Shown here piece after piece: positions 13,743-44,990 of a stretch of DNA of 50,524 nucleotides. Origin of the DNA: an uncultured bacterium (GTDB lineage: Bacteria > Patescibacteriota > Minisyncoccia > Phycocordibacterales > PALSA-1337); assembly GCA_903842025.1 (NCBI GenBank), contig CAIMKX010000038.1, positions 1 through 50,524 on the forward strand, in the 5' to 3' direction. Position 1 is the stretch's first letter; each line of letters opens with the position of its first letter. Position numbers and translations under genes: made by a program. The notes under the pieces were generated by a model that did not search any database, had not been told where the DNA came from, and saw only the letters and a list, made by a program, of their open reading frames with translations.

Positions 13743-14357
13743 ATGTCGAAAACAAAAAAGCTGACTTCACTGTCGGCTATGAAAGGAAAACTGACCATGG
13801 ATTCCATGCTCAGCAGAACGCTCCGCGAATTCACAACCGGACCGCTCAATCAGCTCATTGTGAACCTCGGCGGCCAGGACGGCAGTCAATGGGAAGAAGA
13901 GCTCAAGCGGTTTCTCCGCAAAGAGCCTTGCTGGGTAGCGACTGTTCTCCAGCGCTTGATCGCCACAGGCAAATACGATTGGATCAATCCCGGCATCACG
14001 CAAAAGAACTTTCCTGTGCCCGAGAATTTTGTTCTCGGTGAGGATCCCAAAGTCTTCCATTTCAATCGCGGTATCTCATCAGAGGATGTGATTAAAGAAA
14101 TGGACAAGGAAGGCTATAGTCTGGCTATGATCTGGGATCTTTTGGACTACGGAGCCAAAAATCCCGAAGAGCAACGGAAGTATCCCATCGTCGGTCTTGG
14201 CTCCGTTGGCGAGGTCGATGGCGACCGCGACGTTCCGTTCCTCGGCAGGCACGATTCCGAGCGCGGCCTGGACCTCACTTGGTGGGACTTTGACTGGCTT
14301 GCCCGCTGCCGTTTCCTCGGCGTTCGCAAAAAGGTCTCTCAGGCCTCGGCTTCTTGA
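13743..14357 (+). CDS. DGR variable target protein 1
   Basis: C-terminus carries VR1, near identical to the TR1 translation except at TR adenines; start codon uncertain. Confidence 0.88.
   Translation: MSKTKKLTSLSAMKGKLTMDSMLSRTLREFTTGPLNQLIVNLGGQDGSQWEEELKRFLRKEPCWVATVLQRLIATGKYDWINPGITQKNFPVPENFVLGEDPKVFHFNRGISSEDVIKEMDKEGYSLAMIWDLLDYGAKNPEEQRKYPIVGLGSVGEVDGDRDVPFLGRHDSERGLDLTWWDFDWLARCRFLGVRKKVSQASAS
14196..14329 (+). other. DGR variable repeat VR1
   Basis: 134 bp, ungapped alignment to TR1; about 21 differences, all at TR adenines. Confidence 0.95.
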
Positions 14358-14487: not shown

Positions 14488-14860
14488 GACAAGTGAAAAA
14501 TCTAAGGTCACGGCTTTAGGTAATTTGTCCGCAACCCATACGGTGAGAGTCCGGATGATTACGGTTGTCCAGAGAGTATCATATGGTTGACCAAAAAATC
14601 AGAGACAGTTGGTGTGAGAAGCTATGTGATGTATTAAGATCACAGATTCGATACAGCCTGAGCGAAGCTATCGGCAGGCAGTGGCATGGACTGCTTCTCG
14701 CACAAGGCTCCGTTGGCAAGGTCAATGGCAACCGCAACGTTCCGTACCTCGACAGGAACGATTCCAAGCGCAACCTGAACCTCAATTGGTGGGACAATGA
14801 CTGGAATGCCAACTACCGTTTCCTCGGCGTTCGCAACTACGTCCGTTTCTCCTGAGGCAT
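14488..14860 (+). ncRNA. putative DGR template RNA 1 (boundaries approximate)
   Basis: Promoter-like TTGTGC-16-TATAAT at 14454..14481; leader motif CCATACGGTGAGAG; GCCTG/CAGGC hairpin; contains TR1. Confidence 0.65.
14703..14836 (+). other. DGR template repeat TR1
   Basis: AAY-rich template (GKVNGNRNVPYLDRNDSKRNLNLNWWDNDWNANY) with adenine-only differences to VR1. Confidence 0.95.
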
Positions 14861-15298
14861 TGCTTCGGGAGTTTTGTTTAATAATTGCCGTTTCCAACCA
14901 CCAAGCATCTTGCCAATCTCCGCAAATCGTTCGGCCAAGTGAGCATATTTTTTATTGTCTAAAGCTTTGATTTCCCAGGAAAGCTGCAAGAGTAGCTTGA
15001 CCAAATCGATTTTGGATATGCTCTTGTTCAGGAACAATCGTTTTTCTTCGGTATGCGTATAACTGGCGAGAAAGGCGTATTCTATTGCTTCAAGAAAAAG
15101 AATATCGATCTTGGATCCGATGGTATAGCGATTAGTCTTGGGAAAACTCGAAAGGTAAGCTTGCCAGATATTGTAAGTATCCTTCAATTTTAGTACTACG
15201 GGAATAAGCCTAGTTTGTTGCGTTTTTACTCTCTCTCTCTCTCTCTCTCTCTTAAATTCCGCTTCAACTTTATTAATTTCAGTTTCTGAATTATTCAT
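14837..15298 (-). CDS. avd: Avd-like DGR accessory protein (four-helix bundle)
   Basis: W-x-SFPKTNRYTIGSKIDILFLEAIEYAF...LQLSWEIKALDNKKYAHLAERFAEIGKMLGGWKRQ; located between TR and RT; start taken as MNNSETEINK. Confidence 0.82.
   Translation of the reverse strand: MNNSETEINKVEAEFKRERERERVKTQQTRLIPVVLKLKDTYNIWQAYLSSFPKTNRYTIGSKIDILFLEAIEYAFLASYTHTEEKRLFLNKSISKIDLVKLLLQLSWEIKALDNKKYAHLAERFAEIGKMLGGWKRQLLNKTPEAMPQEKRT
15229..15252. repeat. dinucleotide microsatellite (CT)12
   Basis: 24 nt of uninterrupted CT, in frame inside avd (KRERERERV). Confidence 0.97.
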
Positions 15299-16274
15299 GA
15301 TGTACAACCGTATCATTTCTCTGGAAAATTTGCTAGAGGCGTGGAAGGAATTCCTGAAAGGAAAGCGGAACAAGAAAGATGTCCAGGAATTCCAGTATCG
15401 GCTTTCCGACAACATTTTTGCGCTGCATAACGACCTTAAAAACAAAACGTATGTCCATGGAGGCTATTATGCTTTCAATATCTCCGATCCAAAGCCTAGG
15501 AATATTCATAAGGCAAGCGTGAGAGACAGGCTTCTTCATCATGCGCTTTATCGCAAGCTCTGTCAGCTATTTGATGTGCATTTCATTCATGATTCATATT
15601 CATGCCGGAAGTTTCGAGGAACGCACCGCGCGTTGAAATGTTTCAGGGAATTTGCACTCAAAGCCAGTAATAATAATATGAAAACATTATGGATTCTGAA
15701 ATGTGATATCAAGAAGTTTTTCGCATCAGTTGATCAAGCAATTCTTATGGAAATCCTGAAGAAATACATTCCCGATTTCGATGTAATTGATCTAATAAAT
15801 CGAGTAGTCGATAGCTTCAGTAGTACGGCGATTGGAAAGGGACTACCATTAGGAAATCTGACATCTCAACTTCTGGTCAATGTTTATATGAACGAATTCG
15901 ACCAATTCATGAAGCATAAAATCAAAGCCAAATATTATATCCGCTATGCCGATGATTTTGTTATCTTCTCAAGAGACAAGAATTGGCTTTGTAATATCAT
16001 TACGCAAATTTCGGATTTTCTCTGGAATAAACTCAGGCTTCAACTTCATCCAAACAAGGTGTCCGTAAGCACTATTGCTTCCGGTGTCGATTATCTCGGC
16101 TGGGTTCATTTCCCGGATCATCGGATATTGCGAACGGTAACAAAAAAGAGGATGTTCAAAAGATTGAACAAGTCTGAAGGCAAGCCAGAAATAGTTCAAT
16201 CTTATCTGGGGATGCTGGGCCATGGGAATGGTAGAAAATTAAAAGACAAAATTTTGAAAACCTGGCCTATCTGA
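15297..16274 (+). CDS. DGR reverse transcriptase
   Basis: LPLGNLTSQ (RT4), YIRYADDFVIFS catalytic motif, ILKCDIKKFFASVD; next to TR and avd. Confidence 0.95.
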   Translation: MMYNRIISLENLLEAWKEFLKGKRNKKDVQEFQYRLSDNIFALHNDLKNKTYVHGGYYAFNISDPKPRNIHKASVRDRLLHHALYRKLCQLFDVHFIHDSYSCRKFRGTHRALKCFREFALKASNNNMKTLWILKCDIKKFFASVDQAILMEILKKYIPDFDVIDLINRVVDSFSSTAIGKGLPLGNLTSQLLVNVYMNEFDQFMKHKIKAKYYIRYADDFVIFSRDKNWLCNIITQISDFLWNKLRLQLHPNKVSVSTIASGVDYLGWVHFPDHRILRTVTKKRMFKRLNKSEGKPEIVQSYLGMLGHGNGRKLKDKILKTWPI

Positions 16275-19524: not shown

Positions 19525-21174
19525 ATGACCAAAAGAGTTTTCATTTTTTGGAGCGTTTTCGTGGCAGCCGCCATATTCAGATTGTGGCAGTCTTTTTACG
19601 TGGTTCTGCCTGATATTGGTGATTGTTTGAAGCAAAATGTCAGTGGAATAGGGACAATTGTAGTTGAACCGGAAAGAAAAGAATCGGGGCAAATTTTGGT
19701 TGTTTCGGTTGAGGGTTTGAATATTTCAAATGGATCAATGAGTTGTCCGGCTGATTTTCTTCTCAGAATGAAAACAAAGTTGTATCCGCGGTTTTCTTAC
19801 GAGGATCGCGTGACATTCAAGGGAAAACTGTTGCAGCCGGTCAATTTTGACAGCGGGTCGGACCGTTCTTTTGATTACAAGGGCTATTTGGCCAAAGACG
19901 ACATTTACTATGAAATGAAAAGTGCGGTAGTGGGATTACAAAAAGACTCTGATGTTGTCATTCCCGCGAACACTGTGTCATTCCCGCGAAGGTCATTCGA
20001 CTCTGAGAGTCTCAGACTCGATGAGCGGGAATCCAGTGTTGAATCGCTGGCGCCATATTCTGCGGCACTGGATTCCCGCTTTCGCGGGAATGACAAACAA
20101 AACAATTCTCTGCAATACAATGAAGGCGGGAATGACAAACAAGAAACCAGCCAGCAAGATAACAAGCAGAACGCCAGTAACTTAATAGAAAATGCTGTTA
20201 ATTCAATTACCTCATATCTTTATCAAATCAAACGCCAACTTGTAACTGTTCTTGAAAAAACCTTGGGCGAACCGCATGCGGCCTTGGCGGCCGGGCTGGT
20301 GGTGGGGGAGAAGGCCGCTTTGGGCAAGGATTTGCTCAATGATTTTCGCATTGTCGGTTTGATTCATATTGTCGTTCTTTCTGGTTACAACATCACGATT
20401 GTCGGCGACGCTTTGCGAAAGCTTCTCTCGTTTCTGCCAAGAGTCTGGGGAATAACGATCGGCGGAATGGGCATTTCACTTTTCGGAATTTTGGTCGGCG
20501 GAGGTGCTACCGTCGTCCGTTCCTGCTTCATGGCCGGAGTGGCCCTTTCCGCCGATCTTATTCGGCGTGATTACAGCGTCATCCGAGCTTTGGTCTTTGC
20601 CGGTCTCATTATGATAATTCAAAATCCATTGATTCTCCTTCATGATCCATCGTTTCAGCTTTCGTTCTTGGCTACGTTGGGTCTAATACTTCTAGCCAGT
20701 CCAATAGAAAAGCGCTTGGGATTTATTCCTGAAAAATTTGGCCTGCGCGGCATAGTCGCTTCGACCCTAGCCACCCAAATCTTCGTCTCGCCGTTCATTC
20801 TCTACATGATGGGTCAGATTTCCATCATTGGAATGGTGGTCAATATTTTGGTTCTGCCTTTTATTCCCGTCACAATGCTATTTGTCTCGCTCACAGGTTT
20901 TCTGGGAATGATTTACTTGCCGTTGGGTCAAATCGTGGCCTGGGGGACTTATCTCTTACTTTCCTATGAATTATTCATGGTCGGACATTTTGCCCGCCTA
21001 CCATTTGCCGCCGTCCATATTCCCGCATTTTCTGGCTGGTGGGTGGTGGGGTTCTATCTAGTCTTCATGATCAGTACAATTCTTATTAGGTCAAAAAAAG
21101 CGCTTGTTTCTGTCATTCCCGCGAAAGCGGGAATCCAGTGTAATGTAAAATGTAAATCTCAAAATGAAAAATGA
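19525..21174 (+). CDS. comEC: ComEC/Rec2 competence membrane channel (without a fused metallo-beta-lactamase domain)
   Basis: GLVVGEKAALGKDLLNDFRIVGLIHIVVLSGYNITIV competence motif, multiple TM. Confidence 0.9.
   Translation: MTKRVFIFWSVFVAAAIFRLWQSFYVVLPDIGDCLKQNVSGIGTIVVEPERKESGQILVVSVEGLNISNGSMSCPADFLLRMKTKLYPRFSYEDRVTFKGKLLQPVNFDSGSDRSFDYKGYLAKDDIYYEMKSAVVGLQKDSDVVIPANTVSFPRRSFDSESLRLDERESSVESLAPYSAALDSRFRGNDKQNNSLQYNEGGNDKQETSQQDNKQNASNLIENAVNSITSYLYQIKRQLVTVLEKTLGEPHAALAAGLVVGEKAALGKDLLNDFRIVGLIHIVVLSGYNITIVGDALRKLLSFLPRVWGITIGGMGISLFGILVGGGATVVRSCFMAGVALSADLIRRDYSVIRALVFAGLIMIIQNPLILLHDPSFQLSFLATLGLILLASPIEKRLGFIPEKFGLRGIVASTLATQIFVSPFILYMMGQISIIGMVVNILVLPFIPVTMLFVSLTGFLGMIYLPLGQIVAWGTYLLLSYELFMVGHFARLPFAAVHIPAFSGWWVVGFYLVFMISTILIRSKKALVSVIPAKAGIQCNVKCKSQNEK
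19957..20095. repeat. REP-like palindromic repeats inside comEC
   Basis: TCATTCCCGCGAA... and CACTGGATTCCCGCTTTCGCGGGAATGACA, translated as LDSRFRGNDKQ. Confidence 0.85.
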
Positions 21175-21305
21175 CAATTTAAAATGCAAAATGTTTGAAA
21201 CAGATGCCATTCCATTTTCAATTTTGCCTTGTAATTTTCCATTTTGATTTTTGAACTTTCAATTAGCGTATTCAACACTGGATTCCCGCTTTCGCGGGAA
21301 TGACA
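21112..21305. repeat. REP-pair element with AT-rich palindromic core at the comEC 3' end
   Basis: GTCATTCCCGCGAAAGCGGGAATCCAGTGT ... CAACACTGGATTCCCGCTTTCGCGGGAATGAC. Confidence 0.88.
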
Positions 21306-21321
21306 AGAGAACTTTGCACTA

Positions 21322-23338: not shown

Positions 23339-23399
23339 GGATTTGTAGAACAGCATCGTAGCATAGGAAAGCTGAAAGTGCAAAGACAATTTGGTTTTT

Positions 23400-23484
23400 G
23401 TCATTCCCGCGAAAGCGGGAATCTAGTGTCTTGAAAGATATACTTGCAAATCAACACTGGATTCCCGCTTTCGCGGGAATGACA
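23400..23484. repeat. REP-pair element
   Basis: TCATTCCCGCGAAAGCGGGAATCTAGTGT ... CAACACTGGATTCCCGCTTTCGCGGGAATGAC. Confidence 0.88.
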
Positions 23485-23528
23485 AGAAAAAACTTTGCAC
23501 TTTGCACTTTTCACTGTAAACTTGGCTC

Positions 23529-38755: not shown

Positions 38756-38761
38756 TGCGCT

Positions 38762-38950
38762 GTCATTCCCGCGAAAGCGGGAATCCAGGATAATGTCAAA
38801 GCTCAAATTTCAAATGACAAATCAATGCCAAAGTCCAAATGACAAAACTGGTAATATTTGGCTTTGGATTTTGAACTTTGAGCTTGATTTGTCATTAGGA
38901 TTTTGTCATTTGTCATTCAACACTGGATTCCCGCCTTCGCGGGAATGACA
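38762..38950. repeat. REP-pair element with AT-rich palindromic core
   Basis: GTCATTCCCGCGAAAGCGGGAATCCAGG ... CAACACTGGATTCCCGCCTTCGCGGGAATGACA. Confidence 0.85.
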
Positions 38951-38959
38951 AACAAAAAA

Positions 38960-39457
38960 ATGAATGATTCACCTAAAATAAATTACTGGCGTCTCGCAGG
39001 GATTCTCCTCTTCGGATTCTATTTCCTGACTTGCGCCCTGCATGCGGAAGATTGGCATTTCATCGATAATGTCGATCTTATTATCCATGAAGCCGGCCAT
39101 TGGATATTCATATTTTTTGGAGAATTCATCCAAATCCTTGGCGGTTCGTTGAATCAGGTCTTAATTCCGCTAATTTTTGCCATCTATTTCATTCTCAGGG
39201 AAGATTATTATTCCAGTTCTGTTGTTTTTCTCTGGGTCGGTTATAGTATCGTAAACGTCTCTGTCTATATGGGCGACGCCATCAAGATGCAGCTGCCGCT
39301 TCTGGGAGGGGACAATGTCATTCATGACTGGAATTATTTGCTGAATCATTCACATTTGATCAATTACACACACATGCTTTCCTCGCTTACATACAGCATA
39401 GGCGTATTTATGATAATTGGCGCGGCGGTTTGGGGAGTGAGGGAGACGAGAGGATAG
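38960..39457 (+). CDS. hypothetical membrane protein
   Basis: Hydrophobic ORF; start set at MNDSPKINYW because the upstream part is repeat-derived. Confidence 0.6.
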   Translation: MNDSPKINYWRLAGILLFGFYFLTCALHAEDWHFIDNVDLIIHEAGHWIFIFFGEFIQILGGSLNQVLIPLIFAIYFILREDYYSSSVVFLWVGYSIVNVSVYMGDAIKMQLPLLGGDNVIHDWNYLLNHSHLINYTHMLSSLTYSIGVFMIIGAAVWGVRETRG

Positions 39458-41947: not shown

Positions 41948-42040
41948 TAAACAATGTTGGATTTTATCTTCAAAACTTCGAAGGATCTGCTCGACAAGCT
42001 ATTTTGGATGGTGATAAATAAAGACTGAAAAGGTCACTAA

Positions 42041-42065
42041 AAATCTCCCAAAGGGAGATTTTTTG
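42041..42065 (+). terminator. terminator after rplB
   Basis: AAATCTCCC-AAA-GGGAGATTTTTTG. Confidence 0.75.
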
Positions 42066-42066
42066 A

Positions 42067-42888
42067 TCATCTGACTCTTGGTAAAGTGACTGTGAATGTC
42101 GAACCTTTTCCTTCGCCCTCAGAATAGGCGTCAATATTGCCTTTGAGCCTTTTCACAATGGATCTGGCCAGATACAATCCGACGCCGAGGCCTTCGGTGT
42201 CAGTATGCCTGGCATTGGCGCCACGGTAGAATTTCCGGAAAATATTGGCCATATCTTCCTTGGCGATACCCATACCGTCGTCGGTTATGGCGATTTTGGC
42301 CTTGCTGATACTCTTGGATACTGTTATGTGGACGGTCCGGCCTGGTGGCGTGTATATGAAAGCATTTTCCAGAAGGGTCTGAAGGACGAATTCCAGTCGT
42401 GGCTTGTCGGATTTGACGAAGATATTGTTATCGTCGCATTTTGATGAAAAGAAGATGTTTTTTCTACGGAATTGCTCTTTGCAGTTGTCGGAGATTATCT
42501 TGAGGAAATCGCAAAGATTGATCCTTTCGATGGCATAAGTGGAGTTGTTTGAGGTGCGGGAATCGGCTATCTCGATCAGGGTTCCGGTCATGTCGATCAA
42601 TTTCTGGTTGGAGACGCCGATGTTCTGGAGATTCTCTTTCTTGAAGGAATCAGTCTCGTCAGCAATCATCGAGTCGGTTATCCATTTGATGGAGGTAAGC
42701 GGAGTGCGGAATTTGTGGGCGATGATCGTGATGAATTCGTATTTCATCTTCTCGTCCCTGGTCAATCGATATCTGATGTAGACAATAATGGCCACAATGA
42801 TGACTACGAAAGCGACCATGGCGATAATGATATTGAAAAGATATCCACTAAAGATCGGGATACTATTCAGATAGATGTCGATAATCAT
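42067..42888 (-). CDS. membrane sensor histidine kinase
   Basis: ITIIAHKFRTPLTSIKWITD (H box), VLQTLLENAFIYTP (N box), DDGMGIAKED, GLGVGLYLARSI. Confidence 0.9.
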   Translation of the reverse strand: MIIDIYLNSIPIFSGYLFNIIIAMVAFVVIIVAIIVYIRYRLTRDEKMKYEFITIIAHKFRTPLTSIKWITDSMIADETDSFKKENLQNIGVSNQKLIDMTGTLIEIADSRTSNNSTYAIERINLCDFLKIISDNCKEQFRRKNIFFSSKCDDNNIFVKSDKPRLEFVLQTLLENAFIYTPPGRTVHITVSKSISKAKIAITDDGMGIAKEDMANIFRKFYRGANARHTDTEGLGVGLYLARSIVKRLKGNIDAYSEGEGKGSTFTVTLPRVR

Positions 42889-42957
42889 TTATTTGAATAA
42901 TTATATCACGATTTCTTTTGTCATTTGTATGCATTCGCATATATGCCACTGCGAATC

Positions 42958-42986
42958 TTGACAATAAGATATAAAAGGTGTATACT
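42958..42986 (+). promoter_or_regulatory. sigma70-type promoter of DGR target 2
   Basis: TTGACA, 17-nt spacer, TATACT. Confidence 0.78.
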
Positions 42987-42993
42987 GTGACCT

Positions 42994-43069
42994 AGTTCTT
43001 TGATATTCTAACTTGCTAATTCGCCATGGCATTTAGTGGCTTGAATAGGCCATTGAATGCTGTGGCGAA
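42994..43069 (+). promoter_or_regulatory. structured 5' leader of DGR target 2
   Basis: AGTTCTTTGATA, then TTCGCCATGGCATT/AATGCTGTGGCGAA stem with two wobble pairs; parallels 13648..13726. Confidence 0.72.
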
Positions 43070-43136
43070 GAGTCCAGCAAATCACAAACCCGAGCATACT
43101 CATACGAGTCTGCTCAAAACAAAAGAAAGTGACGCC

Positions 43137-43769
43137 ATGAATACCATGACCCCACCTGAGACAATGACCGCAAACCAGATTGATAAAACGGTCAGTGTCT
43201 GCCGAGCAATGTTCGAGAAACACGCTCCCGAGTTCGATAAGGACGCAGTGCAACAGGCACTCGGCGCGAAAGGATTGGCTGCCGACATGTTTGCGGTCTT
43301 TCGCGGATATGTCGAGCGGTTCGCCAACATGATCACTCGGATTGTGAAGGTCGTCCGTGATCGAACGCCGGAACAGATTCTGACCGCTACGGGCCGGAAG
43401 CAATACACCGACGGCAGTGTCGTCGCCACCATGCCGAAGGGTAATGGCGAAGAAGCCAAGCTGGTCTTCTTCAAGCTTGACAGGTCGGCTTACGACGAGA
43501 ACGGATGGATAAGCGACGCTGATTTGGAGAAGCAGTTTGAATCACGCAACTTGGTGCCTGCTGATCCATATTCGTTGTCCGCCGCCAACGAAGCCGACCC
43601 GGCCTTTGCCGATGAGCACCCCAATGCCACTCATTGGAAGGATGCTAACGGTAAGTGGTGCTATGCCGCTTTCTCCCGCTGGCATGGCGACGAGTGTTTC
43701 GTGAACGTCGACCGCCACGGCGACAGCGGCTGGCGCGACGGCTGGTGGTTTGCCGGCCTCGCCAAGTAG
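43137..43769 (+). CDS. DGR variable target protein 2
   Basis: C-terminal YAAFSRWHGDECFVNVDRHGDSGWRDGWWFAGLAK carries VR2; start set at MNTMTPPETM. Confidence 0.88.
   Translation: MNTMTPPETMTANQIDKTVSVCRAMFEKHAPEFDKDAVQQALGAKGLAADMFAVFRGYVERFANMITRIVKVVRDRTPEQILTATGRKQYTDGSVVATMPKGNGEEAKLVFFKLDRSAYDENGWISDADLEKQFESRNLVPADPYSLSAANEADPAFADEHPNATHWKDANGKWCYAAFSRWHGDECFVNVDRHGDSGWRDGWWFAGLAK
43665..43762 (+). other. DGR variable repeat VR2
   Basis: 98 bp; about 15 differences from TR2, all at TR adenines, plus a 3-nt indel. Confidence 0.92.
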
Positions 43770-43914
43770 CCCTAAGACCTAAGTCACTGTACACTTTCTG
43801 CACTTTGACCTTTGTCCTTGAGATCTGGTGGTCTAACCACCCGGCAAAGAATGATATGCCGCAAACATTCAAACCTCGCACAAGTGTGGGGTTTAAATTT
43901 GTTTAAATATGATA

Positions 43915-44260
43915 AAATGATTTTGGTAGTAGGCGAATCATGCGGGCGGTCAAGGTTTCCCGCGGCCGAATCCAGTATCCATACGTTGAGAGCGTTCGCG
44001 GTCATGGCTTCGGACGGAGGACATATGTAGACACTTCAAAAAATGAAGCTACTTGGTGCAGAATGCCAGGATATTACGATGTCAAATACGATTCAACCCT
44101 GAGAGCATTCGAAGGGTGGTGGCATGGAAGGTATTTTGCACATTACGGCCGCTTTCAACCGCTGGAATGACGACGAGTGTAACGTGAACGTCAACCGCAA
44201 CGACAACGACTGGAACGACAACTGGTGGTTTGCCGGCCTCGCAATCTCTTCATTTATGCC
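43915..44260 (+). ncRNA. putative DGR template RNA 2 (boundaries approximate)
   Basis: CCATACGTTGAGAG leader motif at 43979, ACCCT/AGGGT hairpin at 44096..44117, then TR2. Confidence 0.55.
44148..44242 (+). other. DGR template repeat TR2
   Basis: AAY-rich AAFNRWNDDECNVNVNRNDNDWNDNWWFAGL, near identical to VR2 outside adenines. Confidence 0.92.
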
Positions 44261-44596
44261 GATGACTTTGTTATATTCTCACAGGAAAGAAATTGGCTTT
44301 GTAATATCGTTCCACAAATTTCTGATTTTCTCCAGAATAGGTTGAAACTTCAACTTCATCCAAACAAAGTATCAATAAGCACAATTGCTTCTGGCGTTGA
44401 TTATCTTGGCTGGGTCCATTTTCCGGATCATCGAATATTACGGACGGCGACAAAAAAGCGGATGTTTCGAAGATTGGAGATGTGTGACGGAAAGCAAGAA
44501 ACAATTCAATCCTATTTGGGAATGTTGAAACATGGGAATGGGCAAAAATTAAAAGATCAAATCTGGAAATTTGACTTCAAGGGACGGCTCTGTTAA
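44245..44596 (+). pseudogene. C-terminal remnant of a DGR reverse transcriptase
   Basis: IYADDFVIFSQERNWLCNIVPQISDFL...YLGWVHFPDHRILRTATKKRMFRR, about 80% identical by eye to the C-terminus of the 15297..16274 RT; no N-terminal two thirds. Confidence 0.88.
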
Positions 44597-44636
44597 CATG
44601 CCAAGCAAGCTCTTTCGAGCTATTTTAATTCAATTT

Positions 44637-44990
44637 ATGGCACGATCACTCAAGAAAGGACCCTATATAGACGAGAATCTTTTGAAGAAGATTTCAGGCA
44701 AAAAGCCGGCCGCAACCGGAACGATCAAGACCTGGGCTCGCCGTTCGCAGATTTCCCCGGAAATGGTCGGTTTTACTTTTGGCGTTCACAACGGTCGTGT
44801 ACATACGGATGTTTTCGTCACCGAGGATATGGTTGGACACCGCCTCGGTGAATTTTCGCCTACGAGGAAGTTTGTCCGCCATGGAGGTAAGATGCAGAAG
44901 GAGATTGAGATGAAGGCTAAGGAGGCTGAAATGGCCGCCGCCAAGTCTGCCAAAGAGGCCGCAACCACAGCCGCCGCTCCCAAGAAATAA
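44637..44990 (+). CDS. rpsS: 30S ribosomal protein S19 with Ala/Lys-rich tail
   Basis: [19 protein letters not shown]...[22 protein letters not shown]; start set at MARSLKKG. Confidence 0.95.

Follow-up and report, generated by a model that had tools for sequence, protein, structure and literature searches.

In Bordetella phage BPP-1, an RT, Avd and a structured template RNA rewrite VR at adenines, and the structured RNA which recruits RT-Avd sits downstream of TR (PMC12875486). Clade 2 of Roux et al. 2021 is made up of Patescibacteria-restricted DGRs (PMC8144416). Trans action and incomplete DGRs are already known from Thiohalocapsa PB-PSB1, where trans action has been proposed and another DGR supplies the TR for the RT-less loci 4 and 5 (PMC10907252), and the remote variable proteins of cyanobacteria have their VR far from the RT (PMC7517822). 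Here we describe a second DGR locus (locus 2) in a stretch of 50,524 nucleotides from an uncultured Patescibacteriota bacterium, referred to as the window. The DGR cassette at locus 2 is real, but has no enzyme of its own. We propose that it is non-autonomous and probably served in trans by RT1/Avd1 of the first locus, a reading to which we give a probability of about 0.58. The features of the two loci given below are on the forward strand, apart from avd1.

Target gene and TR/VR pair of locus 2

Locus 2 adjoins a ribosomal-protein operon, with rplB and a histidine kinase gene on one side and rpsS on the other. Target gene 2 (43137..43769) encodes 210 aa and carries VR2 (43666..43762) at its 3' end, corresponding to the C terminus of the protein. 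Its frame is open from 43026; the start is probably 43137, and the start sequence GACGCCATG is also found in the homologue at L014, from a Kaiserbacteria MAG. Other homologues, all 45-58% identical like that one, are present in G010, G028, G035, G036 and L015 (another MAG), and in G035 and L014 they are adjoined by TR, VR and avd. Pfam and NCBIfam contain no match for either target (1 or 2), and a search of solved structures with target 2 gave no useful match. A terminator-like hairpin (43871..43894) occupies the interval between target gene 2 and the template RNA.

TR2 (44149..44242) and VR2 differ by 14 substitutions, and 14/14 fall on template adenines, of which 24 are available, while 0/70 non-A template positions are substituted (P = 1e-10 for all 14 landing on A). 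VR2 further contains one inserted codon relative to TR2. The original prediction of about 15 A-only differences is thus borne out as 14 substitutions plus this extra codon, which its coordinates implied but which it left unstated. Across the 0.95-Mb genome TR2 is the sole match of VR2. Since no TR elsewhere in the genome matches VR2, as a PB-PSB1-type template from another locus would, the template is TR2.

In many members of the genus, the S10 operon has an enlarged gap between rplB and rpsS (window 41950-44640). In G008 it contains a complete DGR of a different RT type (L074; RT 28% identical to RT1), and in G019 an RT at a contig end (L079), both inserts being on the opposite side of the histidine kinase gene. 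The gap looks like a recurrent insertion site.

A truncated RT and no avd

It had been claimed that the sequence enters an RT at the YADD motif right after TR2, at about 80% identity to RT1, that avd is absent, and that the locus consequently looks non-autonomous. All of this stands. The only RT sequence at locus 2 is a C-terminal fragment (44255..44596), whose first residue is the Y of YADD and which is open to its own stop at 44596; from 44255 to 44569 it aligns with RT1 gap-free over 315 nt (80.0% nucleotide identity, 79% at the protein level). Locus 2 gave no match to avd, and no accessory gene is seen there. Rather than being filler, the 12 nt that separate TR2 from the RT (44243-44254, AATCTCTTCATT) form the 3' flank of TR which is conserved across this DGR family. 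Homology to this flank ends at 44254-44255 and RT homology starts from 44255, which places the deletion junction at 44254..44255. The deletion begins directly after the 3' arm of the template RNA and has removed only the terminator hairpin, avd (antisense in this family) and two thirds of the RT, counted from its N terminus. The junction sequence occurs once in the window with 3 mismatches allowed. For 43900-44650, the longest exact match elsewhere in the window measures 20 nt, and that on the DGR contigs C50 and C9 17 nt, with none at the junction. A weak terminator-like hairpin (44608..44621) lies 5' of rpsS.

The YADD endpoint was considered as a recurrent deletion hot spot and rejected. 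The RT deletion of L014 also ends at YADD, but the starts of other truncated RTs are scattered, near aa 47, 114, 162, 183, 256 and 275, and for this reason the shared endpoint is treated as a coincidence. L014 (7420-7810) is a relative of locus 2 in which TR/VR and avd are intact and the RT has two internal deletions; a run of about 11 G is found at its avd/RT start. Internal or N-terminal deletions are also present in the DGR RTs of L156 (G035 C58), L147 (G149) and L158 (G028 C32), and RT loss seems frequent in these genomes.

The template RNA: an upstream leader and a short 3' arm

A covariance model, R1, was built from the aligned DNA upstream of TR at 23 loci, locus 2 being left out. The leader consensus has 23 pairs, with compensatory changes in 18 of them. 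R1 finds three matches in the genome, at locus 2 (108.5 bits), on C50 (93.8 bits) and at DGR1 (14577..14706; 82.3 bits), so that locus 2 has the best-scoring leader of its genome despite having been held out. This leader (44020..44144; E 4.6e-21) has no broken pairs. It shares 52% identity with the DGR1 leader on model columns, and 73% in pairwise alignment. The template RNA is estimated to span 43925..44255, its 5' end being set at the start of homology to the DGRs of G019.

Downstream of TR, relatives carry only a short arm (consensus CTTCATTT) followed by a terminator-like hairpin, and no structured spacer of the BPP-1 type is found there. At locus 2 the arm CTTCATTT (44248..44255) has a possible pairing partner in the leader, AAATGAAG. 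Duplexes of matched arms and leaders are stronger than permuted ones (0/5000 as good). With arms located from sequence alone, 82% of cells in relatives form standard pairs, versus at most 58% when slid, and 0/2000 permutations are as good. The relatedness of the sequences inflates both permutation tests, and compensatory changes are the stronger point, for example at L095, in which AAATACAG occurs with CTGTGTTT. Minimum free energy folding of the whole RNA gives no support (z = 0.20), so the case for structure is built on covariation. In Rfam no family reaches its gathering score, and none of note appears at E up to 1.

The template RNA of locus 2 is therefore intact in its conserved parts, leader and arm, and has lost its terminator hairpin. 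This weakens the concern that loss of the region downstream of TR blocks cDNA priming: in this DGR family the structured domain lies upstream, and locus 2 retains both this leader and the downstream arm. The region thought to be lost is mainly the terminator and avd. Elsewhere, leader RNAs scoring 66-100 bits in R1 are found at L137, L138, L139 and L141 with no recognisable TR or VR behind them; they may be decayed DGRs, or leaders in another use.

Intact DGRs in the same genome

The genome contains four RT matches. One is RT1, in the window; two are the intact RTs of contigs C50 and C9; the fourth is the fragment at locus 2. The three complete DGRs (DGR1, C50 and C9) each have a TR/VR pair, in the order target, TR, antisense avd and RT. 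The same arrangement, with the RNA between target and TR, is seen in 25/25 complete relatives examined. In DGR1, target 1 (13743..14357) contains VR1 (14196..14329), and the leader is followed by TR1 (14703..14836), avd1 (14837..15298, reverse strand, antisense to TR1 and RT1) and the intact RT1 (15297..16274; 325 aa; Pfam RVT_1). The product of avd1 matches Pfam bAvd at 45.1 bits (cut-off 40), and scores 56.8 bits against NCBIfam DivGenRetAVD, under the cut-off of 80.

An intact related RT with Avd is thus available elsewhere in the genome (RT1/avd1, C50 and C9). As there are two further intact DGRs on C50 and C9, locus 1 is not the sole possible helper.

In the window at 14837-15299, avd1 and RT1 run in opposite directions from start codons that overlap, and the far end of avd1 abuts TR1 at its 3' end; both transcripts could be terminated by the post-TR hairpin. 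A palindromic repeat (GTCATTCCCGCGAAAGCGGGAATC and its complement) is dispersed between genes at 20055-20103, 21110-21313, 23387-23495 and 38760-38962 of the window.

RT-less cassettes in related genomes

Cassettes without an RT are common in related bacteria. The R1 search covered 388 genomes from the class, of which 107 have matches, and 398 from the order, of which 125 do. RNA matches without a listed neighbouring RT were examined, contig ends being set aside. Among the matches listed, at least 27 cassettes besides locus 2 have RNA, TR and VR and no complete RT nearby, in a scan which requires a recognisable VR and in MAGs which miss contigs. Many of them also lack avd, and for most the sequence can be read at least 3 kb downstream. 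In the examples checked, VR ends an open frame and unrelated genes come after TR; several cassettes adjoin unrelated housekeeping-like genes, identified by eye as NusG/L11, SecD/SecF, ArgRS and RuvA. The terminator hairpin, absent at locus 2, is kept in most RT-less cassettes among the matches listed.

As a group, these cassettes look as fresh as complete DGRs. Among the matches listed, non-A differences between TR and VR amount to 28/2517 in the RT-less set (27 cassettes and locus 2), versus 15/2285 in 25 complete DGRs (Mann-Whitney p 0.84), and the fraction of mutated adenines is 0.52 versus 0.55. Long-dead relics would be expected to show a spread of decay, of which there is one clear case, the aged relic L195 (11/102 non-A changes). 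Freshness was tried as a way to tell genomes that have a helper RT from those that lack one and was abandoned, as it did not differ: the 11 cassettes from genomes in which no full-length family RT was detected are equally fresh (10/935 non-A). For this reason freshness is no proof of use in trans.

Decayed RNAs without VR or TR are found at L136, L137, L138, L139, L141, L143 and L219. L134 (G161) repeats the geometry of locus 2, with an RT, at aa 47, directly after the 3' element. L210 (G488) has the RNA and a TR-like segment poor in adenines, whose best repeat differs at two non-A sites only; it is no normal TR/VR pair. No locus related to locus 2 was found in viral contigs or in phage and plasmid collections.

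Service in trans or a recent freeze

Locus 2 most likely works, or until recently worked, on RT and Avd supplied in trans, RT1/Avd1 being the best candidates. The locus keeps its target gene with VR2 and its own template RNA, with structured leader, TR2 and closing 3' arm. In the proposed mechanism, RT1 and Avd1, or the C50 pair, would bind the TR2 RNA, the helper RT would copy TR2 with errors at adenines, and the resulting cDNA would rewrite VR2, as related RT-less cassettes appear to have been rewritten. Diversification in trans by locus 1 had been put forward in the original prediction. It remains plausible and is now better supported by the complete RNA, the sister RT1 and the fresh RT-less relatives.

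The main rival is a recent freeze, in which diversification at locus 2 stopped with the deletion, VR2 preserves the variant that was written last, and the target persists as an ordinary gene. We doubt this reading but take it seriously. RT and avd are gone, and the terminator, whose absence also speaks against service in trans, is lost. The extra VR2 codon has not been reset; it is unexpected from a full-length copy of TR2, barring slippage of the RT on the repeated AACGAC units. In G161 the RTs of both cassettes are deleted, the genome yielded no intact RT, and non-A changes stand at 4/97 and 3/96. G028 retains a target 2 homologue and an RT fragment without the DGR RNA. Two further points speak against service in trans: aged relics such as L195 do occur, and the DGR1 leader differs from that of locus 2. 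Yet a freeze sits less well with the intact leader and arm, with the presence of helper RTs, and with RT-less cassettes which as a group are not aged-looking. The lack of any non-A change at locus 2 likewise tells against a relic, but taken alone it is compatible with a freeze that is recent.

Descent of locus 2

How the locus arose is a separate matter. In a tree of RT C-termini, the fragment is sister to RT1 (95/84 support), inside a clade of RTs from the same bacterial family. Between the two, dS is 0.95 and dN/dS 0.13, the ratio being mainly a record of selection from the time before the truncation. Over 393 nt, the spacer-leader segment of locus 2 (43763-44141) is 81% identical to an intact DGR on contig C19 of G036, whereas the fragment is only 64% identical to the RT C terminus of that DGR and 79% to RT1. 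Since the leader fits G036 C19 and the RT fits RT1, parts of locus 2 differ in history. The locus could be a mosaic, in which a module of target, RNA and TR became attached to the tail of a resident RT1-like RT; the fragment would then never have served TR2, and there would have been no decapitation in place. An RT under purifying selection should not lag behind non-coding DNA, as it does in the comparison with G036 C19. However, the swap of partners could equally lie in DGR1 or G036, and leader and RT identities are poorly correlated across the family anyway (r 0.06). We regard a mosaic as a real possibility falling somewhat short of even odds. In-place deletion and module replacement are indistinguishable here, and a mosaic, being a matter of descent, is compatible with a cassette either served in trans or frozen.

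Judging from the sequence, assembly collapse at the junction is unlikely, and a chimeric join of two DGR copies is very improbable: the MAG is fragmented (56 contigs) and several DGR-bearing contigs of relatives end within the cassette, but the junction has no long exact match, the fragment is 20% different from RT1, reaches its own stop and continues into rpsS, and contig C36 of G161 has the same deletion geometry.

Comparison with known systems

In the literature searched, we found no precedent for a cassette with a complete RNA of its own but borrowed proteins recurring across a bacterial order, nor for a structured DGR RNA placed upstream of TR. We tentatively suggest, at a little under an even chance, that DGRs of this group have two tiers: complete elements, and alongside them numerous non-autonomous cassettes which consist of target, structured RNA and TR, lack RT and Avd, and use the complete elements in trans, much as non-autonomous mobile elements depend on proteins from autonomous ones. 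The RNA would be permuted relative to BPP-1, and locus 2 would have been caught soon after RT loss or joining. If service in trans is true, a single RT/Avd pair can diversify several proteins that are unrelated to one another, each with its own template, and RT-less cassettes escape surveys which, as in PMC8144416, seek TR/VR pairs next to an RT. Such cassettes can be found directly through the conserved RNA, which also defines the smallest portable unit for targeted diversification. With one lost RT and one sister RT in one genome, locus 2 makes the trans question testable.

Like the system of BPP-1, the DGRs described here combine RT, Avd and a structured template RNA, but the structure is 3' of TR in the phage (PMC12875486) and here a conserved domain 5' of TR with a short 3' arm. 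Locus 2 resembles the Patescibacteria clade 2 DGRs in its features (A-only TR/VR differences, bAvd-type avd in the family, a short domain-less target and a CPR-like host), which makes it a candidate member of the clade; unlike them, it is without avd and the N-terminal two thirds of the RT. The cyanobacterial remote variable proteins are defined by homology to a distant DGR (PMC7517822), whereas locus 2 carries its own TR. Thiohalocapsa PB-PSB1 likewise has RT-less target loci beside other DGRs in one genome; locus 2 differs in having its own TR and RNA, and would borrow proteins only.
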